From Catellatospora sp. TT07R-123 (GTDB lineage Bacteria > Actinomycetota > Actinomycetes > Mycobacteriales > Micromonosporaceae), in the NCBI RefSeq assembly GCF_018327705.1, contig NZ_BNEM01000001.1, positions 992,001 through 1,056,000 on the forward strand: a DNA stretch of 64,000 nucleotides, given 5' to 3'. Position numbers and translations under genes: made by a program. The number at the start of each line of letters is the position of its first letter. Position 1 is the first letter of the stretch. This document shows, piece by piece, positions 38,399 through 57,273 of the stretch. Under the pieces are notes generated by a model, which searched no databases, was not told where the DNA came from, and worked only from the letters and a program-made list of their open reading frames with translations.

Positions 38399-41370
38399 CA
38401 GTGGTCTCCTGTGGTCGGGTCCCACGTCGGGTCCCAGTCGGTGCTGCTGTCGGGCATCGCCGTGGTGTAGACCCAGCCGGGCTCGGACTCCATCCGGACG
38501 AGGCTGTCGGTCTCCAGGAACTCCGGGTAGCCGGCGTTGACCCGCAGCCGCCCGTGCTGGTCCAGGACCGCCCAGAACGGCACGTCGGGCAGCAGGTAGT
38601 CGCCGTCGCGGAACTGCGGCGGCCGGATCCGGCCGAGCGGGACCGGGTCGGCGCCGGGGATGCGGGCCCGGAACACGAACGCGGCCGGGCGCAGGGTGCC
38701 GGTGCGGGTCACGGGCAGCGCGCTCGTGCTGACGGCGGCGGGCAGCCGGGAGGCCGCCAGCGGCCTGGTCGCCGCGTATGCCGTGCCCGAGGACGTCTCG
38801 GTGGCGAGGTCCACCGACAGCCGCTGCTCGGCGGTCCCGGTCCGGAACACGGTGACGTACTCGGGCTCGTCTTCGCCCTCCTCGACGGCGGCCACCTCGA
38901 TGTCGGGCAGCGTGAGCAGGTCGCCGTCCCGGTCGAAGTGCTCACCGAGGCGGCTGATCTGGAGCAGGTCGAGGTGTTCGCCGGCGTCCAGATCGGTGCC
39001 GTTCAGCGGGTGCAGGGCCGGGCGGACCGCGTCGCGGGTGCCGCGGCAGAACGAGATCCAGGCGTTGAGCTCCTGGTCGACGGCGATGCGATACCAGAGC
39101 CCGGCGGGCAGCGGCCCCGGGCGGTGGCGGCTGTACTGGTAGGCGCCCCACTGGACGGTCAGCTCCGGGCCGAGGATGCGGTGCAGGTGCAGGTCGTCGG
39201 AGTTGAGCCGCTTCCAGTCGGTGCAGGCGAACAGGTTGCCGGGTGGGGACGCCAGCACCCCGCGCCGGGTCGCCTTGTCGAGCACGGTGCCCTGGTGCAG
39301 CAGCGGCGGCACCCGGTCGTGGTCACCGGCGAGCCCGAAATCGCTGGGCAGGCAGGCAAGCAGGTTGTGGACACTGATCTCCAGCTGGTCCAGCCCCGCT
39401 TCGAGCCGCTGGTCGTCCACCCCGGACAGGCCCTTGACCGACCGGGCCCAGCAGGCGCCCAGGGACGCGGTCTGCTTGGCGTACGCGTGCTCGACCAGCA
39501 TGCCCTGCGGGTCCCAGGGGATGGGGCCGGCGCCGTCGCGGTCATGCCGCAGGAACTGCTCGGTCATCCGGGTGCGGATCAGGCCGTGCACGGCGGGCAT
39601 GGTGGTGGTGCGCCCCGACAGCGCGACCAGGTCCAGCTGCTCGCCGGGCTGGCGGCCCAGGGTGCGGCGGACGAGGCTGGCGGCCAGCCCCGCCGCGACG
39701 CCGACGACGGGCCGGATCATCCGGTCGAAGTCCTCCGGCGCGAGCACCACGGCGCCGTCGGGCAGGGCGCGTACGGCATCGCGCCAGGTGCAGTCCGACG
39801 GCAGGCTGTCGGCGAAGGTCTGCTCGATCCGGTAGCCCTTGCCCTGGGACAGATAGTTGATCTTCGCGTCCTCGGCCGCCTCCCACAGCCGGTCGAACGC
39901 CGCGGTGCGCACGCCCGGCGTCGCGGAGTGGCTGGGCAGCCGCTCGCGCAGGATGCGCCGGACGTCGTCGGTGACCGGCTTGGGGTGCCCGGACGCGAGC
40001 AGGCGCTCGGTCAGGGTGCGGTCGTCCGCGTCGCGGGCCGCGGGGGCGTGTCCGGCGTCGATCGCGTCGACGACGGCCGCCTTGAGCCAGTAGAAGACGC
40101 GCAGGGTGAGCAGGTCGCCGCCGAGCTGGGGGTGCCCGGTGGTGCCGAGCACGCGCGGGGTCAGCGTGTAGTGGCGCCCGCGCGGGCCGTCGGCTGCCGT
40201 ACCGCCGGGCCGGGTGGCGACGAGGTCGAGTGCCAGCAGCGCGATGTCGGTGGTGCCGCCGCCGATGTCGAGCACGAGGGCGTTGCGTCGCCAGGTCGGC
40301 AGCAGCGCCTGCTCGACCGGTCGGGCACCGGCCCGGAACGAGCGCAGCCCCGCCTCGACGTCGCCGCCGAAGCCGCGTACGACGAAGTAGAGGGCCGAGG
40401 CGACCGCCTCGTCGTAGTCCATGTGCACGCGCTCGACGGCGATGCCGGTGCCGTCGCTGACGGTGCGGCGCAGCCGGGCCCGTGCCGACGGCGGCAGGGT
40501 CGTCGGGTAGGTCACGGTGACCTCGTCGATCTCGCTGTCGGCGGGCACCTGGAGCCCGGCCAGCAGCGTCCGGGGCTGGCCGGCGTGCGCGACGGCCGCG
40601 CGGACCCGTTTGATCAGGTCGGCGTAGGACTGGGCGATCAGCAGGTCGGTGTCGGCCGGCCAGCCGTCGGGCACGGCGGCCGGGCCGAGGCCGCGCACCG
40701 GATCGGGGCGCAGCAGCCGCCGCTTGATGCCGGGGTGGTACACGATCCCGGCGGGCCGGTCGGCATCGGACACCGCGACGTCGACCAGGTGGGAGGCCTT
40801 GATGTCGGCGACGGCGACGGCGAGGATGCTGCGGATCTCGGGCTGGCGGTAGCCGTCGCGCAACCCGACCTGCCACAGCCGGTGCGCGTGCAGCGCGGGC
40901 ACCGCGAACACCCTGTCGTAGGCCCGGTGGACGGTGACGGCGAGCGCCGCCTGACCGGCCGCGCAGCGGTCGACGGCGATCGCGACGGCACGGCGCAGGT
41001 CGAGGTAGTCGCGGTCGGGGACGCCGTTCCACTGGTCGCCGATGCGCCGCAGCGCCTGCCTGATCTCGGTCAGGGCCGTGAACCGGTGGCTGCGGGTCGG
41101 GCCGTACACCGCGGCGACCTCTTTGAGCAGGTCCTGCTGGTGCGGGGCGAGCGCGGGGTCTTCGAGCAGCTCCAGCAGCACCTCGCGCAGCGCGGCCTCG
41201 TGTGCGGGGTCGAGGGCGACGACGTCGAGGTGGCTGCTCTCGTACAGGCTGGCCGTCGACGACCAGGTGCCCAGGTCGAGGGCGAGGTACTTGAGGCGCT
41301 GGCGGCGGTCGTCGGCCGCCACCGGCGGCAGCAGCGTCTGGCGGGCACGGTCGGTCGTGGGAGCGGTCAT
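38398..41370 (-). CDS. Hsp70/actin-fold (ASKHA) ATPase, SrfB-like
   Basis: A 990-residue protein with an actin/Hsp70 nucleotide-binding core spread over about 600 residues. Phosphate-1 is LALDLGTWSS (Asp 32), a connecting strand is VTVTYPTTLPP (about 284-294, comparable to the VITVPAYF of DnaK), then YDEAVASAL (319-327, like the NEPTAAAL segment), phosphate-2 VLDIGGGTTD (367-375) and an adenosine motif LVALSGRTTTMP (about 585-595). The C-terminal 370 residues are unlike a DnaK substrate domain. Size and pairing with a dynamin-like GTPase recall the enterobacterial SrfB-SrfC pair; homology is not proven. It starts 6 bp after the GTPase stop. Confidence 0.82.
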   Translation of the reverse strand: MTAPTTDRARQTLLPPVAADDRRQRLKYLALDLGTWSSTASLYESSHLDVVALDPAHEAALREVLLELLEDPALAPHQQDLLKEVAAVYGPTRSHRFTALTEIRQALRRIGDQWNGVPDRDYLDLRRAVAIAVDRCAAGQAALAVTVHRAYDRVFAVPALHAHRLWQVGLRDGYRQPEIRSILAVAVADIKASHLVDVAVSDADRPAGIVYHPGIKRRLLRPDPVRGLGPAAVPDGWPADTDLLIAQSYADLIKRVRAAVAHAGQPRTLLAGLQVPADSEIDEVTVTYPTTLPPSARARLRRTVSDGTGIAVERVHMDYDEAVASALYFVVRGFGGDVEAGLRSFRAGARPVEQALLPTWRRNALVLDIGGGTTDIALLALDLVATRPGGTAADGPRGRHYTLTPRVLGTTGHPQLGGDLLTLRVFYWLKAAVVDAIDAGHAPAARDADDRTLTERLLASGHPKPVTDDVRRILRERLPSHSATPGVRTAAFDRLWEAAEDAKINYLSQGKGYRIEQTFADSLPSDCTWRDAVRALPDGAVVLAPEDFDRMIRPVVGVAAGLAASLVRRTLGRQPGEQLDLVALSGRTTTMPAVHGLIRTRMTEQFLRHDRDGAGPIPWDPQGMLVEHAYAKQTASLGACWARSVKGLSGVDDQRLEAGLDQLEISVHNLLACLPSDFGLAGDHDRVPPLLHQGTVLDKATRRGVLASPPGNLFACTDWKRLNSDDLHLHRILGPELTVQWGAYQYSRHRPGPLPAGLWYRIAVDQELNAWISFCRGTRDAVRPALHPLNGTDLDAGEHLDLLQISRLGEHFDRDGDLLTLPDIEVAAVEEGEDEPEYVTVFRTGTAEQRLSVDLATETSSGTAYAATRPLAASRLPAAVSTSALPVTRTGTLRPAAFVFRARIPGADPVPLGRIRPPQFRDGDYLLPDVPFWAVLDQHGRLRVNAGYPEFLETDSLVRMESEPGWVYTTAMPDSSTDWDPTWDPTTGDH

Positions 41371-41376
41371 GGCGCA

Positions 41377-43788
41377 CTACCTCGCGGAGTCGGTCGGCGG
41401 GCCGGACAGGCCGCGCAGCACGGACGTGGGGGGGATCTGCTCGCCGATCAGGTCGAGCTTGCGGATGAGCCGGGTATGGGCGGCCAGCAGCGCGCTCTGG
41501 ATCCGGCGCCGGACCTGGTGGCTCAGGGCCTCGACGACGTCGCGGCGCAGCCGGAACAGCACCGCGGGGTCGCGGCGGGCGTCCTCGTCGTCGTGGTGGT
41601 CGATCTGCCACGGCACCGGCGTCGACGCCGACCGCGGGTAGGCGTAGTCGGCCTCGGTGCTGGGCAGGGCGCCGAGCTGGCGGCCTACCTCCTCGGTGAC
41701 CAGGCGCGGGTCCAGCAGCAGCGCGAAGTTGCGCAGGAACCCGTCGGCTACTGCGCCGCCGCGCACCAGCATGACCCGGCGCAGCTCATCGCGGTGGCGT
41801 TGCAGCGTCTGGGCGTCGGCGTCCAGGCCCAGCGACCGGTGCAGTTCCACGGCCCAGCGCCGCACCCGGTCGGTGAGCACGCTGTCGAGCACGGCCATCG
41901 CCTTGTCGCGGGTCTCGTCGTAGCTGCCCGCGAGGTCGGCGGTGGTCACCAGCAGCTGCGCCTCGCCCGGCTGGGCCACCGTCGGCCCCGTATGCCAGCC
42001 GCCCGCGCCACCGGAGTAGAGGTCGTCGAAGTCCCCGTCGAACAGGTCGCCGTCCGGACCGGCCGGACCGCCCGGACGCAGCAGGCCCGAGTCGATCCGG
42101 CTCAGATGCCCGGTCCAGCACGGCCAGTCGTGCACCCGGCCGACGATCGCCGCCTCGACCAGCTCCTCGAACTCCTTCTCGGTCGGGACCAGCACCAGTT
42201 CGGCCATGCGGGGCTTGAGGTGGTCCACCGCCGTCCGCAGCCGCCGCAGCAGCTCCTCCAGCCGGCGCCGCTCCTGCTCACCGACCCCGACCGGCACCCG
42301 GACCGGCAGCTCGTCGTCGAAGGCCTGCCGGGCGGCCAGGTAGGCCTGCTCCAGGCCGTGCGCCTCGGCCAGCCAGATCCGGCTGCCGTGCTCGCCGAGG
42401 TGCCCGGTCAGCAGCTGCCGCAGATGCCCCAGCCCGCCGTCGTCGTCGGTGAAGTGCGCCAGCGCCGTGACCATCGGGTCGTCGCGGTGGGTCGCGCGCA
42501 GAGATCGTACTGTCGGCGCCCACCGGTCACCGGATCCCCGCGCCACGTACAGGTCATGCGAGGTCGCGCCGCGCGGGGCCGGGGCGCCGAGGAACATCCC
42601 CGCCCGCAGCGCCGACACCAGCGCGAATCGTTCGAAATGCTGGCGGGTCAGCTCCCCCACCATCGCGGTCAGGGCCGCCACATTGTCGCTGTGCTCGGTC
42701 AGCTCCCGCAGCGACCGCGCGACCGGCGACGGCGGCTCCACCGGGTCGAACTTGTTCCCGATGACCAGCATCGACTTGTCCAGCTCGCCGTAGTCGTGGC
42801 GGCCCTGCTCCAGCATGGAGAAGAACTCCTTGACCGAGTCGCTGGTCGGCTCCCGGCCGTCGACGACCACCGCGACGACGGTGGTGCGCGGCAGCTCCCG
42901 GCTGATCAGGTAGCGGTCGCGCAGGCTGCCCGAGTCCAGCCCCGGAAAGTCGATCAGCTCGATCGCGGTGTCGAGGTCGAGCACGCTGCGGGGCACCCCG
43001 ACGGTGATCACCACCTGGTCGATCAGGCTGCGGGTGGCCAGCAGCGTGTCGGCGCTCATCCGGTCCGGGGAGATCGGCGCGCCGTAGCGCGGCTCCGGGA
43101 ACTGCTCGGTCGGGGTGTGCGACGTCCCGATCAGCACGGCCGAGTCGAGCAGCTCCCGCCGGATCGGCGTCAGCTGGCCCCGGGTACGGGCCAGCAGCCC
43201 CGCCCCGACGCGCAGCGCGTCGCGTACCGCGAACAGCTCGGTGGCCCACTCGCGCAGTTTCAGGTTCATCGTCGGGTCGGCCCACCAGGACCGGAACAGG
43301 TCCTCGACCAGCCGCCAGTCGGCCTGCTCGATCCGGGCGGCGTCGACCGGGTGGTAGCCGTCGAGCACGTGCGCGCCGTAGCGGCCGCTGCGCCCGGCGT
43401 GCGTACGGATGCCTTCCAGCAGGTACTCCACCAGCTCGACGACGCCCTCGGGCGTCATGTAGCCGACCACCGCGTCCTCGCCGTACGCCGCGTCCGGCCG
43501 CACCACGACCCGGGTGAGGTTGCCGGTGGCGGGCACGTCGGCGACGGTCAGCAGCCCCGGCCGGTCCACCAGCAGCGTGATCAGCAGGGACTTGCCCTTG
43601 TTGACGTCACCGGCGAACCCGATGCTGATGTTGCGCGCGACCGCCGCCCGCAGCTCCTCGGCCGCCCGCAGCGCCTGCTGCCACAGCAGCAGCAGCCGGG
43701 GCGACGTCGGCCGCTGCGGTTCCAGTTCCGTGACAGCCTGCTCGGCCAGGGTGGCCAGGCGGTGCCGCTCGGCCTTGTCGATGATCAT
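41377..43788 (-). CDS. Dynamin-like large GTPase (SrfC-like)
   Basis: ATG 43788 overlaps the upstream stop by ATGA. The 803-residue protein has G1 GDVNKGKS (60-67), G3 DFPG (280-283) and G4 NKFD (345-348); the 200-residue gap between G1 and G3 includes a helical insertion. The remaining 450 residues are mainly helical (EEFEELVEA..., RRRLEELLRRLRTAVDHLK), consistent with a bundle and stalk of the dynamin type. Such proteins remodel membranes or act as switches, and in bacteria several protect against phage. The gene lies between a DUF4407 membrane protein and the ASKHA ATPase, all translationally linked. Confidence 0.85.
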   Translation of the reverse strand: MIIDKAERHRLATLAEQAVTELEPQRPTSPRLLLLWQQALRAAEELRAAVARNISIGFAGDVNKGKSLLITLLVDRPGLLTVADVPATGNLTRVVVRPDAAYGEDAVVGYMTPEGVVELVEYLLEGIRTHAGRSGRYGAHVLDGYHPVDAARIEQADWRLVEDLFRSWWADPTMNLKLREWATELFAVRDALRVGAGLLARTRGQLTPIRRELLDSAVLIGTSHTPTEQFPEPRYGAPISPDRMSADTLLATRSLIDQVVITVGVPRSVLDLDTAIELIDFPGLDSGSLRDRYLISRELPRTTVVAVVVDGREPTSDSVKEFFSMLEQGRHDYGELDKSMLVIGNKFDPVEPPSPVARSLRELTEHSDNVAALTAMVGELTRQHFERFALVSALRAGMFLGAPAPRGATSHDLYVARGSGDRWAPTVRSLRATHRDDPMVTALAHFTDDDGGLGHLRQLLTGHLGEHGSRIWLAEAHGLEQAYLAARQAFDDELPVRVPVGVGEQERRRLEELLRRLRTAVDHLKPRMAELVLVPTEKEFEELVEAAIVGRVHDWPCWTGHLSRIDSGLLRPGGPAGPDGDLFDGDFDDLYSGGAGGWHTGPTVAQPGEAQLLVTTADLAGSYDETRDKAMAVLDSVLTDRVRRWAVELHRSLGLDADAQTLQRHRDELRRVMLVRGGAVADGFLRNFALLLDPRLVTEEVGRQLGALPSTEADYAYPRSASTPVPWQIDHHDDEDARRDPAVLFRLRRDVVEALSHQVRRRIQSALLAAHTRLIRKLDLIGEQIPPTSVLRGLSGPPTDSAR

Positions 43789-45146
43789 CGCGTGCCGTCC
43801 TTGTCGTCGGGATGGCGCTGCTCGTAGCGCAGGTGGTCGGCGCGCCGGTCGCGGTAGTGGCGGTCGCGCTCGTTGTCGAGTTCGGTCAGCATCTGGGCCT
43901 GGAACGCCCGCCGGTGCGCGTTCAGGTCGGCGGCGGCCCGGTCGACCTGCAACTGCACCCGGTCGTGGTAGCGCACCCGCTGGGCCTGCTCGGACAGGCG
44001 CCGCCCGTAGATCGACGCCCCGGCCAGCAGCTTCATGCCCAGCGGGATGAGGTCGATGGCCAGCAGCAGGATCCGCAGCAGCCACGGGATCACCACCAGT
44101 TCGGTGCTGCCGGGATGGGCGGCCCGGAAGTCGCGGAACGCCTGCTCCTGACGCAGCCACCCGGCCGGCTGGCCGCGCTGGGCGTCGGCCTCGGCGATCG
44201 CCGGGTCGGCCAGCAGCGCCCGGTGCTCCACCGAGGTCTCGTCGGCCAGCGCACTCTGCTTGGCCTGGAGGTCCCGGTCGCCCTTCTCCTGGTCGGCCAG
44301 GGCCCGGTTCAGCGCCTTCTGCGCGTTGTTCTTCGCATCCAGAGCCGTGCGCCAGATCGCGTACAACCGGGCCGCGTACGGGCCGTGTCCGGCGGCGCCG
44401 GAGATGAGCCCCTTGACCTCGCGCTCGTACCGGCCGTACGCCGTGTCCGCCTCGGCGGTCTTGAGCTTGAGTTCATCGCGCCGCGCGCTGACGGCCACGG
44501 CCAGTTTGACCTGCTCGGCGTTCAGGTCGTCCTGCCGAGCCGCGACCACGTGGTCCACGGCGGCGGTGTACGCCGTGAGCCGGTCGGCGCGGATCTGCTC
44601 CTCGATCTCGGGGTGGAACACGATCAGCAGCAGCGCCTCGCTGATCAGGACCGCGATGGTGACCGCCACGACGACGCGCAGCAGGTACACCGGCAGCCGG
44701 ACGACCGGCCACAGCGACCGCGGCCGGCGGCGGGCCTGCCCGGCGACGTCCAGCGGCACCGTCGCGTCGGGGTCGGGCAGGACCCGTGCCGAGATCGGCT
44801 GCCGGTCGGCGTGCTGCTCCACCGCCGACAGGTCCCCGTAGGACGGGTCGACCAGGATGGACCGGTCCACCGCGAAGATGATCGCGCCCCAGAACAGCGC
44901 CGCCGCGACGTACCAGAGCCGGAACTGGCCGGTGATGATGGTGACGTACATGGTGAAGGTCACCGACGCCAGCGCCCCGACCACGAGCACGAGGATGCCG
45001 ACGCTGGCACCGCGATAGGTCTCCACCCGCGAGGCCAGCAGCCCGGGGTCCACGCCGCCGCACCACAGCAGCGCCCGGGTGACCCGGCCGGGCCGGTAGT
45101 CGTCGCCGCGCCGGCGACGGCGGCGCCACGGCCAGTACAGCCTCAC
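43785..45146 (-). CDS. DUF4407 membrane protein with coiled coil
   Basis: GTG 45146 with AAGGG eight bases upstream is chosen; the longer frame runs through promoter sequence. The 453-residue protein has two transmembrane helices at about 47-95 with the DUF4407 signature FAVDRSI after the second, a third near 152-175, a long extramembrane coiled coil (about 190-320, many Glu, Lys and Ala) and a fourth helix near 345-368, then a charged C-terminal helix. The function of the family is unknown. As first gene of a coupled operon with a dynamin-like GTPase it may provide the membrane anchor or sensor. Confidence 0.85.
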   Translation of the reverse strand: MRLYWPWRRRRRRGDDYRPGRVTRALLWCGGVDPGLLASRVETYRGASVGILVLVVGALASVTFTMYVTIITGQFRLWYVAAALFWGAIIFAVDRSILVDPSYGDLSAVEQHADRQPISARVLPDPDATVPLDVAGQARRRPRSLWPVVRLPVYLLRVVVAVTIAVLISEALLLIVFHPEIEEQIRADRLTAYTAAVDHVVAARQDDLNAEQVKLAVAVSARRDELKLKTAEADTAYGRYEREVKGLISGAAGHGPYAARLYAIWRTALDAKNNAQKALNRALADQEKGDRDLQAKQSALADETSVEHRALLADPAIAEADAQRGQPAGWLRQEQAFRDFRAAHPGSTELVVIPWLLRILLLAIDLIPLGMKLLAGASIYGRRLSEQAQRVRYHDRVQLQVDRAAADLNAHRRAFQAQMLTELDNERDRHYRDRRADHLRYEQRHPDDKDGTR

Positions 45147-45233
45147 GATCTGCCCTTCCCCGTGCCCTGGGGCGGGCCGGCCGCCACCCCGAACGGGCTC
45201 CAGAATGGCCGCCGCCGCCACCCGACGTCACCG

Positions 45234-45248
45234 GTTGCCTGTTGCCTG
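45234..45248. promoter_or_regulatory. GTTGCCTGTTGCCTG motif (regulon site A)
   Basis: A direct repeat of GTTGCCTG lies between the divergent DUF4407 operon and the XRE gene. The core GTTGCCTGT recurs in the next divergent region at 47683, so it is probably the XRE regulator's site. Confidence 0.6.
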
Positions 45249-45343: not shown

Positions 45344-46501
45344 ATGTCGGCATTCGGGTACGAGCTGCGTCGCCTGCGTACGGCGGCGGGGCTGTCGCTG
45401 CAAGGGCTGAGCCAGGTCGTGCACTACAACAAGGGCTACCTCAGCCGGGTCGAGACCGGCGAGCGCACCCCGACGACGCAACTCGCCCGCGCCTGCGACG
45501 ACGCGCTGGGCACCGACGGGCGCCTGACCGAACTGCTGCGGGGCACGGCCGCGCCGAGCGCCGCGGCCGCCGACCCCTCGGTCGCGGCCGCCGAGGGCGC
45601 CTGCCTGCCGGTCCTGCCCCCGGCCGCCGACCCGTCGTGGGCGCAGCCGCTGTCCGACGTCCTCGGCGCGACCCGCGCCCTGGGCCAGCGCGCGCCGGTG
45701 CGCACCGTGCTGCCCCCGATGCTGGCCCAGCTGCGCACCCTCAGCGACCTGACCGCACCGCCCGGCGACGGCCGGCACCTGCTCGGCGTCTACGCCCGCT
45801 TCGCCGAGTACACCGGCTGGCTGTACCAGGAGACCGACGACCGCGTCGGGTCCGCCCGCTGGAACGCCCAGGCCCGGCAGCTGGCCCGGCGGGTCGGCGA
45901 CGACAGCCTCGCCGCGTACACCGTGGTCCGCGACGCCGAACTGGCCATGTACAGCGGCGACGCCGCCATGACGATCCGGTACGCGCAGCTGGCCCAGCAC
46001 GATCCGGCCGCCACCGCGCAGACCCGGGTGCTGGCCGCGCACCGCGAAGCGCAGGGCCACGCGCTGGCCTACGACGCCGACCGGATGCGCGCGGCCCTGG
46101 ACCAGGCACTGGCCTGGCAGGAGTCGGGCACCGAGGCGGCCGGGCACGGTTCACGCAGCGTCGGCGACCCGCACGCCGTGACCGCGGGCTGGTGCCACTA
46201 CGAGCTCGGCCGCTACCGGCACGCCGCCGACCAGCTCGAACGCGGCTGGAACAGCATCAGCCCGGACTCGCGCCGCATGCGGGCCATCATCGGCAGCCGC
46301 CTGGCCCTGGCGCACCTGGGCAGCCCCGATCTCGACCGCGCCTGCGAGGTCGGGCGCGAGGCGCTGCGGCTGACCCTGCTGACCGAGTCGGCGACCGCCC
46401 GCGGGCAGCTGCGGCTGCTGGCCCGCGAGCTGCACCGCCGCCGCGGCCACCCGCCCGCCGCGGCGCTGTACACCGAGCTCACGACGCTGCTGCCGCGCTG
46501 A
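45344..46501 (+). CDS. XRE-family regulator with TPR-like C-terminal domain
   Basis: ATG 45344 has a G-rich ribosome site (GGAGCGGGGGG). The 385-residue protein has an N-terminal HTH (LRRLRTAAGLSLQGLSQVV, then YLSRVETGERTPT) and a helical repeat region from about 145 to 385 resembling TPRs (AAGHGSRSVGDPHAVTAGWCHYELGRY). Such regulators read a peptide or small ligand with the TPR part. It is divergent from the DUF4407 operon and convergent with the deoxyribosyltransferase-Nudix gene, whose 3' end it overlaps by 23 bp. It probably controls both sides. Confidence 0.88.
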   Translation: MSAFGYELRRLRTAAGLSLQGLSQVVHYNKGYLSRVETGERTPTTQLARACDDALGTDGRLTELLRGTAAPSAAAADPSVAAAEGACLPVLPPAADPSWAQPLSDVLGATRALGQRAPVRTVLPPMLAQLRTLSDLTAPPGDGRHLLGVYARFAEYTGWLYQETDDRVGSARWNAQARQLARRVGDDSLAAYTVVRDAELAMYSGDAAMTIRYAQLAQHDPAATAQTRVLAAHREAQGHALAYDADRMRAALDQALAWQESGTEAAGHGSRSVGDPHAVTAGWCHYELGRYRHAADQLERGWNSISPDSRRMRAIIGSRLALAHLGSPDLDRACEVGREALRLTLLTESATARGQLRLLARELHRRRGHPPAAALYTELTTLLPR

Positions 46502-47612
46502 CCGGCGGCACCGCCGACAGCACCGCCACGATCATCCCGAGGGTGGTCCAGTCGGTCAGGCCACCGTCGATGATCTGGCCGAACGTCGCCACCTCGACCG
46601 TGGTCCGCTCCCCTTCCGCGGCGTCGCCGTGCACCTGCGTGCAGTCCGCCAGCCCGTCCATCTCCGCCCCGCTCAGCTCCACGCTGAACACGTGCTGACG
46701 GTGCGCCAGCAGGGTCGCCACCGGCTGGCGGGCGCCGTGGGCGCGCAGCCGCCCGCCGTCGACGGCCAGCCCGGTCTCGGTCCCGAACTCGGCCGCCGCC
46801 GCCGCGCACAGGTCGCGCGCGGACGGGTCGGAGCCGCCGGGCAGCTCGTGCACGTACCCGTCGGCGGTCACCGCGGCCGACCGGAACTCGCGCACCAGCA
46901 CCACCCGGGTCTGCAGGAGCACCCCGGCCGGCTGGTACGCCACGACGGCGACCACGTCGGTGCGGCCGATCACGACCTCGTTCGACTTGACCCTGCCCTC
47001 CCCCGCGACGTGCACGTGCGGGTGCACCGCCCACAGGAACGCGCCCGCCCCCGGCGACGCCGACATCGCCCATACCGCCCGCGCGTGGTCGACCCGGTTG
47101 CCCGCCCGCTCCTGCGCCCGCGCCCAGTGCCGGAAACTCGGCGTACGCCACAGCGTCAGCGGCACCTCGGCGTCGACGCCGTCGCGCGGATCGCCGCCCG
47201 CCAGCGCCGCCAGCACCACCTCGGCGGCACGGTCGGCCCCGGCGACACACTCGACACCGTGCCCGCGGGCGAACTCGCGCAGGTCTGCCGACGCGTCCGG
47301 CGCCAGCAGCACGACGCCCCGGCCGCACCCCTGCTGCCGGACCGCCTCCAGCACCTCGGCGCCGCCGTCCCCGTACACCCGGAAGACCACCGCGTCCGCC
47401 TGGTCCCGGCGGGCCGCTACCCAGCTCGGCGGCGTCGCCTCGGCCGAGGGCGCGAACACCGCCAGCCGTCCGGCGCCGCGCCAGCCGCGCCGCAGCGACG
47501 CCACCACCTCGGCGTGCCACCGCGCCGTGCCGGACCCGGCCAGCAGCACGCTGGCCGCCCAGCCGCCCGGCAGCACGTCCTCCGGTCCGACCACCACCGT
47601 CTCACCTGCCAT
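46479..47612 (-). CDS. Fusion of deoxyribosyltransferase-like and degenerate Nudix domains
   Basis: ATG 47612 (MAGETVVV) with GGAGG upstream; the longer frame begins 39 bases earlier without support. In the 377-residue product, residues about 18-135 resemble nucleoside 2-deoxyribosyltransferase-like domains (SVLLAGSG, WHAEVVASLRRGW, ADAVVFRVYGD). About 195-370 has the Nudix layout, with HELPGG near 265. The Nudix box is damaged: the first Glu is absent, REUxEE reads AEFGTE, and few catalytic acids remain. Both domains bind nucleotides, so the protein may sense a nucleotide signal such as an NAD-derived product instead of hydrolysing it. It is convergent with the XRE gene. Confidence 0.72.
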   Translation of the reverse strand: MAGETVVVGPEDVLPGGWAASVLLAGSGTARWHAEVVASLRRGWRGAGRLAVFAPSAEATPPSWVAARRDQADAVVFRVYGDGGAEVLEAVRQQGCGRGVVLLAPDASADLREFARGHGVECVAGADRAAEVVLAALAGGDPRDGVDAEVPLTLWRTPSFRHWARAQERAGNRVDHARAVWAMSASPGAGAFLWAVHPHVHVAGEGRVKSNEVVIGRTDVVAVVAYQPAGVLLQTRVVLVREFRSAAVTADGYVHELPGGSDPSARDLCAAAAAEFGTETGLAVDGGRLRAHGARQPVATLLAHRQHVFSVELSGAEMDGLADCTQVHGDAAEGERTTVEVATFGQIIDGGLTDWTTLGMIVAVLSAVPPVSAAAAS

Positions 47613-47682
47613 GACGCCCCGCCTCCGCTCGCCCTGAACCGATGGCGGCAAGCATCACCCACCGGCGGCCGCACCCGGCGGT

Positions 47683-47717
47683 GTTGCCTGTACCCACCCG
47701 CGACCGGCAACAGGCAC
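47683..47717. promoter_or_regulatory. GTTGCCTGT motif with inverted GGCAACAGGC (regulon site B)
   Basis: GTTGCCTGT at 47683-47691 and GGCAACAGGCAC at 47706-47717 form an inverted pair between the divergent Nudix-fusion and TIR genes. The same core is at 45234. Confidence 0.6.
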
Positions 47718-47743
47718 CGCACCCCGGTCCGGCGGGCGTCGAG

Positions 47744-47749
47744 CACAAT
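47744..47749 (+). promoter_or_regulatory. Candidate -10 box of a leaderless TIR transcript
   Basis: CACAAT lies 8 bp before the GTG start of the TIR gene, which has no ribosome site. The spacing fits a leaderless mRNA. Confidence 0.35.
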
Positions 47750-47757
47750 GGACAGTC

Positions 47758-49056
47758 GTGAAGTCCCTCGCCGTGTTCCACCCCGCCAACGACGCCGGAC
47801 AGCAGCTGCTCGACGACTTCATCCGGCCCCTGTGCACCCGATACGGCCTGCCGGTGCAGGTGATCCCGGCCGGCGCCACCCGCGCCGCGGGCCTGGCCGT
47901 GCAGCTCACCCGTACCTTCGTGGTGTGGGACCTGTCGGTGGAGGGCCCGGAGAACGTCTACGCCGCCATGCCGATGCAGGCGAAGCTGCATCCGCGCAAC
48001 CTGCTGGTCAGCCGCACCCCGCTGCCGCGAAACGTCCTCGGGCAGCACCAGTGCGCGCCGATCCACGGCCACACGTTCCCCAACGAGCTGCTCGGCGAAT
48101 GGCTCGACCGGCACCTGCACGAACACCTGGTCGGCCCGGCCGGGGCCGGAACCTACCCGCGCATGGCCGCCCACTACTGGATGAACGAGCACCCGGCCGA
48201 CTACTTCCTCAGCTTCCGCGGCTCGCACCAGGCGCAGGCCGAGGCCTGGCGGGACCGGTTCGAGGCCGCACACGGTGTGTCGGTGCGCATGGTGCCGCCC
48301 AACGAGTACTCCTACCCCACCGAGGTCGTCACCCGGCAGCAGCTGTGGGAGGGCGTGGCCCGGCTGATGCGCGAGATCCAGGCGACCCGCCGCGCGGTCG
48401 TCCTCCTCAGCGACGACTACTACGACTCGTTCTGGACCGCGTCGGAGCTGCTGGTGCTGCTGTGGCTGGCCTACCGCCCACCGGCACGCGGCAGGCAGGA
48501 CCTGGAACGGCCGGAGGTCCACTTCGCCGCCTCGGCCGCGCGTACCGACCTGGCGCCCCTGGCCGCCGCCCTCGACCACGGCATCCCGATCCCGACGTCG
48601 GACCACGCCCTGCGGCTGGTGTACCTGATCAACAACACCGACCCGGTGACCTCGGCGCCGGAGACCCAGGTGCCGGCTCGCGGCCTGGGCCGCCTCATCG
48701 CCCGCGCCGTCCGCACCCGCTACGGCTACTACCAGCCCGAATTCCAGACCCACGACTTCTGGCACCAGGTCCGGGTGCCCTGCCCGCAGTGCCACCCGCA
48801 CCACCGCCAAGCGGCCGACGTCGACTGGGCGGCGCACATGGCCACGGCCGATGAAGGCCCGGTCGACTACTTCGGCTACTTCGCCGCCGACCCGGCCGAC
48901 CTGGCATCGGGCCGACTGACCTGCCCGGGTTGCGGCAACGGACTGGACATCGCCAATCGGCGCGGCGTACGCACCCTGTGGTCGCCCGTGATGAGCACCG
49001 AGAAGGACCAGGACCGGCCCGCCCTGAACCACCTCCCGCTATGGGAGGTGGTGTGA
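47758..49056 (+). CDS. TIR-domain protein with C-terminal zinc ribbon
   Basis: GTG 47758, apparently leaderless. A 432-residue cytoplasmic protein. Residues 1-125 form an alpha/beta domain of unknown type (AVFHPANDAGQQLLDDF). The TIR domain spans about 147-260: box 1 DYFLSFRGSH (148-157) matches the classic plant-type box, and the catalytic helix SDDYYDSFWTASELL carries Glu 230 in the FWxxxE motif, as in NAD-cleaving TIRs. A four-cysteine zinc ribbon (Cys 342, 345, 389, 392) follows. TIR NADases mediate abortive infection in bacteria. The neighbouring degenerate Nudix fusion could sense or bind the product; that is inference. Confidence 0.85.
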   Translation: MKSLAVFHPANDAGQQLLDDFIRPLCTRYGLPVQVIPAGATRAAGLAVQLTRTFVVWDLSVEGPENVYAAMPMQAKLHPRNLLVSRTPLPRNVLGQHQCAPIHGHTFPNELLGEWLDRHLHEHLVGPAGAGTYPRMAAHYWMNEHPADYFLSFRGSHQAQAEAWRDRFEAAHGVSVRMVPPNEYSYPTEVVTRQQLWEGVARLMREIQATRRAVVLLSDDYYDSFWTASELLVLLWLAYRPPARGRQDLERPEVHFAASAARTDLAPLAAALDHGIPIPTSDHALRLVYLINNTDPVTSAPETQVPARGLGRLIARAVRTRYGYYQPEFQTHDFWHQVRVPCPQCHPHHRQAADVDWAAHMATADEGPVDYFGYFAADPADLASGRLTCPGCGNGLDIANRRGVRTLWSPVMSTEKDQDRPALNHLPLWEVV

Positions 49057-49177: not shown

Positions 49178-49516
49178 TCACTCATTGTTGCTGCTCCGCT
49201 TGCCCTCCCAGCGCAGCCTGACGGTCAGGCTGCCTTCAGCGGCGGTCTTGGCGATCACCGCCCCAGCCTCTGCGGTCAGGCGTACGCCGAACTCCAACTC
49301 GATCTCGTCGGGGTCGAGGTCGCCCTGCCGGAACGTGCGGAGGGCCTCGACCGCGGCGTCACGCGCCTGGCCGAGCGCCTCGCCGAAAGCGCGCCCGACC
49401 ACGACGATGGCCTTACCCCGAGGCGAGGCCCGCTGGGGTCCGGTCGGCATGTCCAACACCTCGCCCTCGACGTACACATGACCTCCGTCGGCGGTGCTGA
49501 ACTCGAGTATCGGCAT
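49178..49516 (-). CDS. Trypco1 / CU044_2847-family small protein
   Basis: ATG 49516 follows AAAGGA. The 112-residue protein opens with strands ILEFSTADGGHVYVEGEV, has a central helix (GRAFGEALGQARDAAVEALRTF) and ends with ELEFGVRLTAEAGAVIAKTAAEGSLTVRLRW. This EFGV(K/R)L-AEAG-AKT pattern marks the CU044_2847 family, also called Trypco1 because it co-occurs with trypsin-like proteases in actinobacterial conflict operons. Here too a trypsin-like gene is found, six genes upstream. It may be a protease substrate or adaptor. It is the last gene of the operon. Confidence 0.88.
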   Translation of the reverse strand: MPILEFSTADGGHVYVEGEVLDMPTGPQRASPRGKAIVVVGRAFGEALGQARDAAVEALRTFRQGDLDPDEIELEFGVRLTAEAGAVIAKTAAEGSLTVRLRWEGKRSSNNE

Positions 49517-49532
49517 CGAGGATCCTTTCTAA

Positions 49533-50870
49533 TCAGGGGGCATGGGCGACGCACTGCGAACTCCAGCTTTCGCTTTGCTGGGGAGGATGGAAGGGCCGGC
49601 TCAGTTCTTCAAGCTGACGGAGCAGGCCTTTCAGTTCAGCCTTGCCTGCAACGAATTCGAGGACGGCCCGCTCGAACGCGGCGGCCAGTTCCGGAGGCAT
49701 CGTGTCGGACGCGTCGAGGCAGAGCGTGCTCGCGTTGGCGAGAGCGGCGAGCTTGTCGTTGATCAGGCCATGGTCGCCATCGGCCGGAACCGCCGATGCT
49801 CCGCCCTGTTCGAACCAGAGCCGCTGCGCACCTGCCGCAGGTGTCAGATATCGCAGAAGTTCGACGGCATTCTGGTCGTCGGTCATCAGCGCGGCGAAGT
49901 CGGATGAGACCTCGAAGACCTTGGAGCCTTGCCGGCTCTCGGACTCCGGGAATGGGAAGAAATCGAAGCTGGCACGAGCTCCAGGGCTGCCTGCGGGCGA
50001 TTCGGGCGCGCCCACGGCCGGCGACCCGGAGGCTGCCAGCAGGCCGGCCATAAAGGAGCCTTGATGATGGAACCGGCAACGCCGCTGCAGGAGAGGCGTG
50101 CCGGCCACGTCGTAAGTGGTGAGGAGCGCACCTGTGCGCCCACCGAGAACCATATTCTCGGGCGCGAAGAGCCCGCCGAACGTCTCCCATGCCTTTTCGA
50201 CACTCGGCGATGTCCAGGAGAGGCGGCCCGAGGCCCAGTCGGCGTACTCGCCGGGTCCGGCCTGGTGCAACAGGATGTCCTCGATCCAGTCTGTTCCCGC
50301 CCAGCCGGCCTGCGAGGTGGCACCCAGACCTATGCACCAGCCCGCGCGGTCGCGCAGGGCCGACGCGGCGGCGGCGGCCGAACGGAGCTCGCTCCAGTTG
50401 GCCGGTGGGTGCTGAACGAACTCCTGATCTACGCGAGGATCGAACCAGACGATGCTCTTCAACGTGGTCTTGACGGCGATCGCGTAGGGCCGGTTCGCGT
50501 CGCGCAGCATGCGGTTCGGCGAGTCCTCAGGCGCTGTCTCCAGGAACTCGAGTGAGCGGAACTCCGCTTGGTGGGCTGCCAGGTCCCCCGCGGACGGCAT
50601 GATCACCACGTCCGGCGACTGCCCTTCCTCGATCAGCGAGCGCAGGGCCTGCGAGACGTCTCGGGTGCCCTGGTAGTCGACTTCGACACCGTGCTGTGCC
50701 CCGAACTCGTCCAGGACCGCTTGGAAGACCTGCTGCTCGCCGCCGGTCCAGGAGCCCAGAACCACCAGCTTTCCAGGAGCGCCGCCGGTGTTGCAGCCCG
50801 TCAGGCCGGCCATTGCCATGATCACTGCTGTCAGCATCCCCACCGGATGCGGCCGCACTCGCACGGTCAC
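49533..50870 (-). CDS. Solute-binding lipoprotein (family 1-like)
   Basis: GTG 50870 overlaps the upstream stop by GTGA. The 445-residue protein has a lipoprotein signal (MAMAGLTGC) and a type II periplasmic-binding fold: KLVVLGSWTGGEQQVFQAVL, later PDVVIMPSAGDLAAH and AYAIAVKTTLKSIVWFDP. It resembles sugar/peptide family-1 binding proteins. No permease or ABC ATPase is nearby, so it is probably a ligand receptor, not an import component. The next gene upstream encodes a membrane protein with extracellular domains that could receive the signal, as GlnX does from GlnH in mycobacteria. Confidence 0.88.
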   Translation of the reverse strand: MTVRVRPHPVGMLTAVIMAMAGLTGCNTGGAPGKLVVLGSWTGGEQQVFQAVLDEFGAQHGVEVDYQGTRDVSQALRSLIEEGQSPDVVIMPSAGDLAAHQAEFRSLEFLETAPEDSPNRMLRDANRPYAIAVKTTLKSIVWFDPRVDQEFVQHPPANWSELRSAAAAASALRDRAGWCIGLGATSQAGWAGTDWIEDILLHQAGPGEYADWASGRLSWTSPSVEKAWETFGGLFAPENMVLGGRTGALLTTYDVAGTPLLQRRCRFHHQGSFMAGLLAASGSPAVGAPESPAGSPGARASFDFFPFPESESRQGSKVFEVSSDFAALMTDDQNAVELLRYLTPAAGAQRLWFEQGGASAVPADGDHGLINDKLAALANASTLCLDASDTMPPELAAAFERAVLEFVAGKAELKGLLRQLEELSRPFHPPQQSESWSSQCVAHAP

Positions 50871-51919
50871 CGCTGGTACTCCCGAAGGCGTGGCACGAGG
50901 CCGAGAACTGATGAGATCGTGGCGAGCACGGCGAGAAGGCTGGTCCAGCCGATGCTCCCGCTCGCCACACCTTCCATGATCACCTGCGCCCGCGTGAAGT
51001 CCGGCACCGAGACCTTCGCCTTCACGCCCCCTGCCGTCGAAACAGGCTGATCCAGCAGACACTTCGGGCACTGGCCCTCGACAACAGGTAGCAGCTGTGC
51101 TTGCGCCGACGCGGCCTGCTGATCGAAGTAGGCGAAATCATGCGTGTACTTTCGTTCCTCCCGCAATTGGTCGCCCGCCAGCCATGGTGTGGCTGCGACG
51201 ACGCCGACCGCCAGCACTAGCGCGGTGGCTGCCACGAAGAGCAGGCTCAGGAGCCGACGGAAGCGCCGGGCCAGCAGGATCTGAACTCCCACCAACCCGC
51301 ACAGGAACATGACTACCGGAAGCAACCACAGCACCCACGTGAGCTGGCTCTCCGGTCCGGCGGCCAAGATCTCGTCGTAGGCATTCGCATTGCTGTGGAG
51401 CAGCTCTTTGAGCTTCGGAAGTATCTCCAGATAGAGCAGGTGCGAGGCGTAACTCAGATAGGCGGCCGCAAGCGCCTGGGCATCGATTCGCAGGTAGGAT
51501 TCGACTTTTCCTGCCAGCGCCAGATAACTGATGAGCAGTCCTTGCGTGAGCTGGATATTCCGGCTCTCGGCCGTGTCGGCGACGCTGTGCTCGGCCAGTT
51601 GTGCCAGGCGCCGGCCTGCGGTCGCCACCGCGTTCTCGTATCCGACTCCACGTCCGAGCACCTCGACCGATTGATCGTCGAAGCTGGCGACCAACGCACG
51701 GTCGGCCCTGATCAGCGACTCCTGAGTCAGCGCGATGAGGCGCTGCGACTTGACGATGTGATCGATGGCGTCGGTCGCGTCCTGGACCCGCTGGACAGCA
51801 AGGGCCGGACCGATCAGGGTCAGCACGCCGGTCGCCACCAACCCGGCCAGCAGCAGCCGCAGCATGCGAGCTGTGGTCCAGTACCCAGGTGCTGTGCCGG
51901 TCAGACCGAGTCGCCTCAT
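50867..51919 (-). CDS. Four-helix membrane sensor (GlnX-like layout)
   Basis: A 350-residue protein with start overlapping the VWA stop by ATGA. Helix 1 (about 19-41) is followed by about 155 extracellular, mostly helical residues (QRVQDATDAIDHIVKSQRL ... ILPKLKELLHSN). Helices 2 and 3 (about 198-219 and 228-247) are a hairpin, followed by a second outer segment with a CPKC pair (about 288-291) and helix 4 (about 320-342). The outer four-helix-bundle look is that of chemoreceptor-type ligand domains. Its position between a binding lipoprotein and a PknG-like kinase mirrors mycobacterial GlnX (Rv0412c). No sequence identity is claimed. Confidence 0.75.
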   Translation of the reverse strand: MRRLGLTGTAPGYWTTARMLRLLLAGLVATGVLTLIGPALAVQRVQDATDAIDHIVKSQRLIALTQESLIRADRALVASFDDQSVEVLGRGVGYENAVATAGRRLAQLAEHSVADTAESRNIQLTQGLLISYLALAGKVESYLRIDAQALAAAYLSYASHLLYLEILPKLKELLHSNANAYDEILAAGPESQLTWVLWLLPVVMFLCGLVGVQILLARRFRRLLSLLFVAATALVLAVGVVAATPWLAGDQLREERKYTHDFAYFDQQAASAQAQLLPVVEGQCPKCLLDQPVSTAGGVKAKVSVPDFTRAQVIMEGVASGSIGWTSLLAVLATISSVLGLVPRLREYQR

Positions 51920-53289
51920 CCAGCCGCCTCCTGGCCCGGCACGCCGGGAACGCCTGCCGTGCCGACGCCCTGGATCTGCGACATCGCCGTGACGGTGCGG
52001 CCGGTCATGATTCTCTTGACTTTGCTGGCCTGGAGGTCCGTGCGCACCCGAACCGCACCGGTGGCAGCGTCGTCGATGTGGACCAACTCTTTGAGCCTGT
52101 CAAGCTGCTCCTGGTTTCCGGACTCCCGTGCGAGCCGCACCGCCTCGCCGAAACGTGCCTGCGCCGTGTCGAGGTCGTTTGAGTCGTACGCCTCACAACC
52201 TTGTTCGATGGCTTCTGCAAGCTGGGTTTGCCCCTTGTAGAAGGCTATCGATGGATCCATTTTGCTGATCTGTATCGGATCTTCTGACCAGGCGACGACC
52301 ACATTGGTCCGCGGGGTCACCCGCTGCTCACCGACGACCGCGTCGATCCATGCCACGCGGCTGCCGTCCGTGGGGTGAGCCCGGCCCATGCCGCGCAGGT
52401 CGATGCTCACCTGGTAATGGCGGGTCTCGGCCTGCCACGATCCGGTGCTGACCGTACAAGTGTGTTCGCTCGCCCAGTGCACGTCCTCTGTCATGTCCTG
52501 GTTCAGTGGAAAGACCAGTTTCAACAACCGCAGCCGAGCCGGTGCCGAGGCTGTGATACGCAGGGTCAGATCGGGCAGCAGCCGGGCAGCCGCCTTGCGA
52601 GTCATCGCCTCGAAGTCAGCGATCAGATCCTCGGGTGCGCTGACGCCGTCGGCCCTGCCCCGCATGCGGCTGGCGATGCGCATGAGCTGCTGTGGGACCC
52701 AGCCGTCACCGATGCCCCGGGCGTCGGCCACGAACTCGCCAGCGCACAGATCGAGTGCTCGCTCCAGCTCGGCCACTGTCTCCGACTCGTTGTTGCCATC
52801 GGTCAGCAGGATGGCATGGCGGACAGCGGACGGATCCCTGGACAGGATGGTGCGCGCCAGGCGCAGCCACTGCCCCATCGCGGTGCCCCCATGTGGCTCC
52901 AACGTGTCGACCAGGCCCTTCGCAGCGGTGCGGTTCGCTGAGGTGGCCGACTCGAGCATCGGAATGTGCTGCGGATAGACCATGACCGCGTCATGGCGAC
53001 CCGCCACCACCGCGAATCGGCTGCCGTCTGGGAGCGCGTCGATGGCCGCCTTGGTCGCCTTCTTCGCCGACTCGATCTTCTCTATCGGGACTGCCATCGA
53101 GTGCGAGCAGTCCACCAGGATGACGACGGCGAGGCTGGCACCATCCTTGCCTGCTGATCCGCGGCGCGGCTGGGCAGGTCCGCCAGGTTCACGCGCGGTC
53201 ACAGCCACGATGGCGTCCACCGCCTTCGCCTCCCGTGAGACATACGGGTTGTGGCTCACCGTGACTTCGAACTCTAGAGGTACCTGCAT
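51916..53289 (-). CDS. VWA-domain protein with intact MIDAS
   Basis: A 457-residue cytoplasmic protein. The N-terminal strand region (about 1-50) is followed by a von Willebrand A domain with the complete metal-ion-dependent adhesion site: DCSHS (60-64), Thr in GGTAMG (about 135) and Asp in LLTDGNN (about 162). A beta-rich region (about 240-340) and a C-terminal helical part with TPR-like residues (AYDSNDLDTAQARFGEAVRLARESG) come next. In bacteria such proteins often pair with protease, ATPase or kinase partners as scaffolds. The gene starts 43 bp after the kinase and overlaps the next start. Confidence 0.86.
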   Translation of the reverse strand: MQVPLEFEVTVSHNPYVSREAKAVDAIVAVTAREPGGPAQPRRGSAGKDGASLAVVILVDCSHSMAVPIEKIESAKKATKAAIDALPDGSRFAVVAGRHDAVMVYPQHIPMLESATSANRTAAKGLVDTLEPHGGTAMGQWLRLARTILSRDPSAVRHAILLTDGNNESETVAELERALDLCAGEFVADARGIGDGWVPQQLMRIASRMRGRADGVSAPEDLIADFEAMTRKAAARLLPDLTLRITASAPARLRLLKLVFPLNQDMTEDVHWASEHTCTVSTGSWQAETRHYQVSIDLRGMGRAHPTDGSRVAWIDAVVGEQRVTPRTNVVVAWSEDPIQISKMDPSIAFYKGQTQLAEAIEQGCEAYDSNDLDTAQARFGEAVRLARESGNQEQLDRLKELVHIDDAATGAVRVRTDLQASKVKRIMTGRTVTAMSQIQGVGTAGVPGVPGQEAAG

Positions 53290-53332
53290 TCAAGCCCTTT
53301 CTGATTTCGGCGGCCCGGATTCGCAGCGGGTG

Positions 53333-55651: not shown

Positions 55652-57273
55652 CTCGGTCTTCTGTCCCGGACTGCGGCCGCATACGCCTCGACCAGTGCCT
55701 CAGCCTCGGCAAGGTCGACCGGCCGGGCCATCAGCGCGGCCTCGGCCAGCCGGTAGCGGGTGCCGAGGGCGTTGGGCAGGGCTCCGGACAGGCTGTCCGC
55801 CATCGCCCGGTACGAATCGAGCCTCCCCAGTAATTCGGTCAGGCGGTCGTCTTGTTTACGCAGAAAGCCGGTCAGCCGGACAGCCGCTTCGAGTGCGGCC
55901 TGGGCCCGGTCGGCCAACGCCGCTCGCGCCTGCTCGAGCTGAGCGGCGCTGGCCTTGCTCCTGGCGGCACGCAGCCCGCTGAGGTCCATTCGCAAGGACG
56001 AACTGCTGTCCGATGGCCGCACATCGACCTTGACGAGGCGCGCCGTGACCCGGTATTGCCCGCGCGCCATCCGTTCGGCGGCCCGCACCTGATCGATCTT
56101 CGCTGCCAGCTCTGGAAACGGTGCGCCGTCATGCAGTGTCGACTGAAAGGCGTCGGCAAGCGCCCGTACCCGCGATCCCGCGTGGCGGAACACCAGCAGG
56201 ATCCTGGCGCCCTGTTGCACGAAGGGCTCGACGATGCGCGGAACCAGGGACTCAGGGGTGCGCGCCTCGTCCACCCCGATCAGCACGATGAGCAGGCCCG
56301 CAGGGTCAAGGTCATTGTCCGAGCCGGCCGGCGCAGGTCCCAACCGATCGGCGAGCCGTCTGTGGACCTCATCGGTGTCCATGCCCGAAACGTCGAGTGC
56401 AGCGGCCACCGAGTCCAGGGGAACTGGTGGGGCCCCGTCGGCTTCGCGTGGGCTGCGCTCACGATCACTCAGTACAAGCATCCGCGCCAGCTCCGCATAG
56501 CGCTCGGTGGGCGCATCGTCCATCGAGACAGAGAGTAGGGATTTGTCGCTCACACCGGACAGGAAGGCCGCGACCGCCCGGCCGAAGGCGGCATCGCCGA
56601 ACTCCGGCCGAACTCTGTCTACAATAGACTGGTCGAGCCTCGGTTCGCCAGTGATCTGCAGGTCCAACTGCGGGACGTATTTCAGAATCGTCTCCACCGG
56701 AATCATCGAAGACGCGTTGTCCGCCTCATAGACCGCCACGACGATGCCGATGAGGTCGCCATGGGCGTCGATCACGCCGGCACCGCTGTAGCCCTGCCTG
56801 ATGGTCGGCCCCGGTTCATACGGCGTGAGCAACACCCATTCGTTGCGTGGACCATGCGAAGTACGCACGCTCGCCGTGGCTTCGAGTCCGGTCGGAGCTC
56901 CGACGGGAAACCCGACGGCTCGGACCTTCGTCGCGCGCTTCACCGGCCGCCGTCGGAGTTCTCCCACGATGTCGGCGGGCACGGCCTTCGCAAGGCGCAG
57001 CACGGCTATGTCACCGGTATGGTCTGCCTGCGGCGGAAACCAACGTAAGACACGGGCTTCGCGGGCGGGCAGATCGGGCCGTCCGACGAACTCGACCCGC
57101 ACCACAGCATCCGCCGCAACTTCGCCGGTGTTGGCGCGAATCACATGTGCGCAGGTCAAAATGGAATCCCTCGTCACGACGACCCCCGCACCGAGCACAT
57201 CGCCCTGCCAGTCGACGATCCGCACACTCCACGGCAATGGTTCAACACTTGTCGATGTGAAATCCACCGGCAT
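55648..57273 (-). CDS. Trypsin-like serine protease with helical C-terminal domain
   Basis: ATG 57273 starts a 541-residue protein; no ribosome site is visible. The N-terminal 210 residues form a chymotrypsin-fold protease with the full triad: His 43 (LTCAHVI), Asp 88 (TGDIAVLRL) and Ser 163 (GYSGAG). There is no signal peptide, so it acts in the cytoplasm. A middle domain (about 300-420) has a Rossmann-like strand (LLIVLIGVDEARTP) and resembles effector-associated regions. The C-terminal 150 residues are helical, with AEAALMARPVDLAEAEALVEAY. It is the first gene of the six-gene coupled unit and may be the effector. Confidence 0.87.
   Translation of the reverse strand: MPVDFTSTSVEPLPWSVRIVDWQGDVLGAGVVVTRDSILTCAHVIRANTGEVAADAVVRVEFVGRPDLPAREARVLRWFPPQADHTGDIAVLRLAKAVPADIVGELRRRPVKRATKVRAVGFPVGAPTGLEATASVRTSHGPRNEWVLLTPYEPGPTIRQGYSGAGVIDAHGDLIGIVVAVYEADNASSMIPVETILKYVPQLDLQITGEPRLDQSIVDRVRPEFGDAAFGRAVAAFLSGVSDKSLLSVSMDDAPTERYAELARMLVLSDRERSPREADGAPPVPLDSVAAALDVSGMDTDEVHRRLADRLGPAPAGSDNDLDPAGLLIVLIGVDEARTPESLVPRIVEPFVQQGARILLVFRHAGSRVRALADAFQSTLHDGAPFPELAAKIDQVRAAERMARGQYRVTARLVKVDVRPSDSSSSLRMDLSGLRAARSKASAAQLEQARAALADRAQAALEAAVRLTGFLRKQDDRLTELLGRLDSYRAMADSLSGALPNALGTRYRLAEAALMARPVDLAEAEALVEAYAAAVRDRRPR

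Follow-up and report, generated by a model that had tools for sequence, protein, structure and literature searches.

A zinc-ribbon TIR protein, an NsdA-type XRE/TPR regulator and a degenerate Nudix fusion in Catellatospora: a candidate regulon marked by a shared repeat

Several described systems come close to a three-gene locus in Catellatospora sp. TT07R-123, which is analyzed here within a stretch of 64,000 nucleotides (contig NZ_BNEM01000001.1, positions 992,001 to 1,056,000; hereafter the window), high-GC actinobacterial DNA from a genome of 9.17 Mb. These are the bacterial and plant TIR proteins that cleave nicotinamide adenine dinucleotide (NAD), such as AbTir, RUN1/Roq1 and SpbK; the Thoeris system, composed of the TIR protein ThsB and of ThsA; the NsdA-family XRE/TPR regulators of actinobacteria; and inactive Nudix domains that bind ADP-ribose, as described for NrtR (PMC6800001) and human TRPM2 (PMC6461439). 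TIR effectors are also found in GTPase/HSP70 and other nucleoside triphosphate-dependent conflict systems (PMC7159879), and NAD-based conflict systems have been described as including Nudix and DRHyd domains (PMC7159879; PMC9503650). A literature search of incomplete coverage found no described XRE/TPR-TIR system, nor one joining TIR to a Nudix fusion with a nucleoside deoxyribosyltransferase-like (NDRT-like) domain.

The locus shows three genes, an intact TIR motif, degenerate Nudix and NDRT motifs and a rare repeat shared between two genomes. The regulator gene (45344..46501, forward strand) and the Nudix fusion gene (46479..47612, reverse strand) are convergent and overlap by 23 bp, while the fusion gene and the TIR gene (47758..49056, forward strand) are divergent and separated by 145 bp. 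An initial annotation, made from the DNA letters alone, had described the TIR and fusion genes and overlooked the regulator as third member. Both reading frames it described are real according to the open reading frame list and a coding-like third-position GC of 0.94-0.95, and the GTG start of the TIR gene is backed by homologue alignment. For the fusion gene the frame stands and the start moves, since orthologues begin at ATG 47612, most likely the true start, and not at the TTG 47651 chosen by the ORF caller. We favour, tentatively and with somewhat less than even confidence, an explanation in which the three genes form one regulon, made up of an XRE/TPR regulator of the NsdA type, a TIR effector with a zinc ribbon and a divergent pseudo-Nudix that was recruited to it.

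The main evidence for joint control is a direct repeat, GTTGCCnGTTGCC, present in front of the window regulator, of an XRE-TIR operon in Hamadaea tsunoensis and of a Nudix gene unlinked to that operon in the same genome. In the window it occurs in exact form (GTTGCCTGTTGCC) at 45234..45246, forward strand, 110 bp upstream of the regulator start at 45344, and GTTGCCNGTTGCC has no other exact copy in the 9.17 Mb genome. In the Hamadaea genome (9.5 Mb) the exact repeat is found at three places: one site precedes the XRE-TIR operon by 109 bp, another precedes the Nudix gene by 38 bp, and the third is a tandem repeat; the chance of finding the exact motif in a 100-bp stretch of this genome is about 3e-5. 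The spacing from repeat to regulator is 110 bp in the window versus 109 bp in Hamadaea, and the flanks match at background level (23-36%). The gap between the divergent fusion and TIR genes harbors a copy with one mismatch, GGTGCCTGTTGCC (47706..47718, reverse strand), as well as weaker copies at 47683 (forward) and 47699 (reverse); shuffled versions of the gap yield a site as good as the one-mismatch copy in 0.2% of trials. The exact motif is absent from canonical Nudix loci. A further genome of the same genus (G016), taken in as a control only, has its sole exact copy of the repeat upstream of an XRE gene that overlaps a different TIR gene. Taken as a whole, these sequence comparisons make the repeat a probable operator for regulators of this type, into whose regulon the Nudix gene has probably been recruited.

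The regulator has an N-terminal helix-turn-helix (Pfam HTH_31, 54.5 bits) followed by a TPR-like C-terminus, and belongs to the NsdA family, as it scores 113.3 bits with the NCBIfam model NsdA_fam_reg (NF053720) against a cut-off of 75. Its best Hamadaea match, with 50% identity, is precisely the gene overlapping the TIR start, and in the control genome the NsdA-family XRE gene, 37% identical to that of the window, overlaps a small plain TIR_2 gene (53.7 bits; L087 6087-7821). This regulator type seems, from such pairings, to swap TIR effectors. All three motif-bearing regulators exceed the NsdA_fam_reg cut-off and are in this respect like the known NsdA-family regulators of actinobacteria, from which they differ by their adjoining TIR genes and their common repeat GTTGCCnGTTGCC. 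Most XRE homologues at other places in these genomes have no TIR gene next to them.

Concerning the effector, the 432-residue TIR protein is composed, according to alignment and model, of a Rossmann-like region (residues 1-129), a TIR domain (146-279) and a C-terminal zinc ribbon. The initial annotation was right in taking TIR box 1 and the catalytic glutamate as intact: box 1 reads DYFLSFRGSH and the glutamate motif SFWTASEL (W226xxxE230). S152, R154, E189, W197, S224, W226, T227 and E230 are unchanged in all full-length homologues, which range from Hamadaea (58% identity), genome G031 (54%) and a Chloroflexi metagenome-assembled genome (MAG; about 50%) down to a Leptolyngbya plasmid (24%), and W226 and E230 are also invariant in more distant Bacteroidales and Chlorobiaceae relatives. 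The glutamate of the plant RPV1 TIR domain aligns with E230 (SRWCLDEL versus SFWTASEL; phmmer, E about 1, weak alone). An AlphaFold2 model built from six aligned sequences (mean predicted local distance difference test, pLDDT, 63) superimposes residues 146-279 on Roq1 (7jlx_A) with Z 10.1 and a root-mean-square deviation of 2.5 over 98 residues at 24% identity, with other solved TIR matches to RUN1 (Z 9.1), AbTir and MyD88 (both 8.7). The modelled N-terminal region aligns with a wide range of unrelated Rossmannoid chains, including those of TIR domains, and is classed here as Rossmann-like in a broad sense. The zinc ribbon (CPxC/CPxC, C342-C345/C389-C392) is a feature of the homologues from actinobacteria, Chloroflexi and cyanobacteria that the Bacteroidales and Chlorobiaceae relatives lack.

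The protein is therefore like the bacterial and plant TIR NADases in fold, WxxxE-type motif and invariant glutamate, and differs from them by its N-terminal Rossmann-like domain, its zinc ribbon and its Pfam scores, which fall below the cut-offs (TIR_2 17.6 bits versus 28; TIR 15.4 versus 21.3); its NADase activity and its role in defence are putative. Not all TIR domains are enzymes, and the low Pfam scores together with the unusual zinc ribbon would also fit a scaffold or autonomous effector unrelated to NAD, in which the ribbon and the N-terminal domain bind nucleic acid or protein and the glutamate is incidental. We give this alternative little credence, as W226xxxE230 and its surrounding motif are invariant over members from Actinomycetota, Chloroflexota, Cyanobacteriota and Bacteroidota.

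The TIR family is rare. Besides the window genome, a full-length copy is present in 2 of 299 genomes of the bacterial family, and a draw of 296 genomes of the phylum contains one in none except the window genome itself; a first scan of genome contigs with the single protein as query gave no matches. Viral contigs and phages are without a homologue, so that a viral origin was rejected. A weak profile match of the TIR alignment to cyclic AMP-GMP synthases (E 0.01) was dismissed, because it is due to a helical stretch contributed by distant members. As to the surroundings of family members, a PrsW-like membrane protease, recognized by eye, adjoins the gene in Hamadaea (L009 6448-7797, reverse strand) and in a Muribaculaceae MAG (L015 9641-10363, forward strand). 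Distant members in Bacteroidales and Chlorobiaceae MAGs (L014 77-6006; L017 4317-9560) are accompanied, also by eye, by paired Hsp70 genes or by a caspase-like peptidase, an MTH538-type gene and a second TIR gene.

The partner gene encodes, as judged from orthologue alignment and family profile, a degenerate fusion of a Nuc_deoxyri_tr2-like domain with a Nudix domain of the ADP-sugar pyrophosphatase type. Its Nudix lineage is evident by descent, the window copy being 47-49% identical over about 375 residues to a paralogue in its own genome (C2, L011 8958-10148), which passes both Pfam models (PF15891 33.6 bits; PF00293 22.6 bits, with a NUDIX cut-off of 21.1). In the window copy neither Nuc_deoxyri_tr2 nor NUDIX reaches the Pfam cut-off, and the protein has no Pfam match. 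The Nudix box (REUxEE) reads AEFGTE versus AELAEE or AEVREE in orthologues; the telling change is that of Glu to Thr, since the Arg to Ala replacement also occurs in the active sea-anemone TRPM2 (AEFGEE; PMC6461439). In the N-terminal domain the TTNxE[WF]G context is lost together with the five preceding residues. Membership in Nuc_deoxyri_tr2 is thus not recovered for the window and Hamadaea copies, in both of which the motif is lost and the Pfam match absent. Two segments common to ADP-sugar pyrophosphatases, VREFRS and GYVHELPGG, are retained in the window fusion, and in profile searches the nearest solved Nudix structure is the ADP-sugar pyrophosphatase NUDT5 (E about 0.001), the first domain leading to 4mcj (E 1e-8). 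The initial annotation had called both active sites damaged, which agrees with the altered box, the lost motif and the low Pfam scores; dead would be too strong a word, and in the N-terminal domain the place of the usual catalytic residue is still taken by an aligned glutamate. The window fusion is likely catalytically inactive, judging from these motifs.

The Hamadaea copy has a degenerate first domain and an intact AELAEE box. In the Nudix tree it groups with the window copy with support of 100/98, in a join of two long branches that calls for caution, and when either of the two is removed the remaining one stays outside the canonical clades; the two copies are likely of shared descent. Outside the window this degenerate clade is found in a single genome, which is also among the few with an XRE-TIR operon.

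With a damaged-box Nudix domain in an NAD/ADP-ribose setting the fusion resembles NrtR and the NUDT9-H domain of TRPM2, from which it differs in having no helix-turn-helix or channel and in its NDRT-like second domain; ligand binding is putative. The locus as a whole resembles Thoeris in that a TIR gene lies beside a gene with a potential ADP-ribose-type-binding domain. It differs from it in that PADLOC finds no ThsA or ThsB, and in that the partner is a degenerate NDRT-Nudix protein lacking a Sir2 or membrane output; no ThsA-type SLOG/Sir2 or membrane partner is present next to the TIR gene (PADLOC, with neighbours typed by Pfam). Among known anti-phage systems in PADLOC the TIR and Nudix proteins have no match, and the regulator has weak matches to the helix-turn-helix only. 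A new receptor in a Thoeris-like arrangement, where the TIR protein makes an ADP-ribose-type messenger and the fusion is the dedicated receptor that passes the signal on, would accord with their apparent co-regulation, with an ADP-sugar-binding segment kept beside a damaged catalytic box, and with the precedent of NrtR and TRPM2 as inactive Nudix sensors. Nevertheless, neither Pfam nor PADLOC detects an output domain in the fusion (Sir2, nuclease, pore or helix-turn-helix), and TIR homologues exist without it, so that we regard such a signalling pair as decidedly unlikely.

The genetic link between the TIR and Nudix genes, which the initial annotation proposed to look for in other genomes, holds in part. 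A conserved gene pair was rejected: no other homologue locus (Hamadaea, G031, the Chloroflexi MAG, Leptolyngbya) has the Nudix gene beside TIR, and the adjacency expected of a toxin-antitoxin or effector-immunity pair is missing at these loci. In H. tsunoensis the XRE gene overlaps the TIR start as an operon and the Nudix gene is on a different contig, the neighbour kept with TIR there being the regulator. Co-regulation and co-occurrence, on the other hand, are supported by the shared repeat and by presence in the same two genomes, and the partner may accordingly sense products of NAD breakdown or confer immunity. Among four genomes of the genus Hamadaea, the TIR and Nudix families both occur in H. 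tsunoensis only, the other three having neither.

These observations bear directly on the possibility that the unit is made of the XRE/TPR regulator and TIR alone, the Nudix gene being a diverged paralogue that came to lie between the two, is functionally unrelated to them and serves its own metabolic role. It would explain the overlapping XRE-TIR operon without Nudix in Hamadaea, and likewise that with another TIR in the control genome, and it fits a Nudix family that is common without TIR: relatives of the ordinary copy are carried by 11 of 11 sampled genomes of the window genus and by many of another genus, and relatives of the fusion (some partial) by 27 other genomes of the bacterial family, mostly where no TIR homologue was found. 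What speaks against it is that the unlinked Hamadaea Nudix gene is preceded by the same rare operator, with a near copy in the window Nudix-TIR gap, and that degenerate Nudix copies are found in exactly the two genomes holding this XRE-TIR pair. We consider it doubtful, although still a serious contender.

In the three-gene regulon that we favour, the regulator would bind GTTGCCnGTTGCC before its own gene and before the TIR and Nudix promoters, and would control these genes up to the point where a trigger is perceived by its TPR part. The TIR protein would then cleave NAD+, giving either ADP-ribose or one of its cyclic isomers, and would halt growth or kill the cell, as with other bacterial TIR effectors. 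The co-expressed fusion may hold the TIR product without turnover, given its retained ADP-sugar-binding segment and damaged catalytic box, and so act as a buffer or immunity protein or as a feedback sensor; such a role is favoured over that of a killing receptor because the fusion has no recognizable output domain. The recurrence of the XRE-TIR pair as an overlapping operon in Hamadaea, and a TIR fold and catalytic motif that fit NAD-cleaving TIRs, are counted in favour of this regulon.

Several points weigh against it. Only two genomes carry both the TIR and Nudix genes, which in the second are not adjacent; the full-length TIR homologue of G031 has no XRE or Nudix gene alongside and a KptA/Tpt1 gene instead, and that of the Chloroflexi MAG stands alone among unrelated genes. 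The motif was first spotted by comparing four upstream regions, the site in the control genome being the only independent find. As only one box glutamate is lost, weak Nudix catalysis is possible, and in the Hamadaea copy the AELAEE box is intact. The TIR model reaches intermediate confidence and its zinc ribbon is badly modelled, while the single-sequence model of the fusion is unusable (mean pLDDT 40), for which reason claims on binding by the fusion rest on its sequence.

In a bolder version of the regulon, which we regard as unlikely, the TIR system would be dispersed, its members linked through a common operator instead of their order on the chromosome, with variable TIR effectors and with a Nudix/NDRT fusion that has lost catalysis and been recruited to serve as dedicated receptor of the TIR product or as a sponge for it. 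If true, TIR partners could be found through shared operators even when their genes are unlinked and invisible to gene-neighbourhood surveys, the shared operator being a cheap and direct test of system membership. It would also be a bacterial example of an enzyme converted to sensing or soaking up ADP-ribose as the product of a TIR protein, comparable to TRPM2 in humans and NrtR in bacteria.

The KptA/Tpt1 RNA 2'-phosphotransferase gene of G031 (L010 8698-10526; PTS_2-RNA 164.5 bits), an NAD+-using enzyme, overlaps the TIR start by 4 bp, so that it forms with the TIR homologue an operon of two NAD+-linked enzymes.

A final point is related to the flanks of the locus, the TIR gene being located between two reverse-strand operons, with no evidence tying either of them to the TIR unit. 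The first (38398-45221) encodes a DUF4407 membrane protein, a dynamin-like GTPase and a SrfB/Hsp70-like protein and resembles the GTPase/HSP70 conflict systems; the exact operator at 45234 is situated between it and the XRE gene, hence this operon could belong to the regulon. Antisense to its Hsp70 and GTPase genes runs an open frame of 1808 residues (38401-43827, forward strand), which was discarded as a high-GC artefact on account of a third-position GC of 0.76 versus 0.95 in real genes. The second operon (49178-57273) comprises Trypco1, a solute-binding protein, a GlnX-like membrane protein (by eye), a vWA protein, a PknG-type kinase and a trypsin-like protease, and looks like a PknG-GlnX-GlnH operon to which a trypsin/vWA conflict system has been joined.

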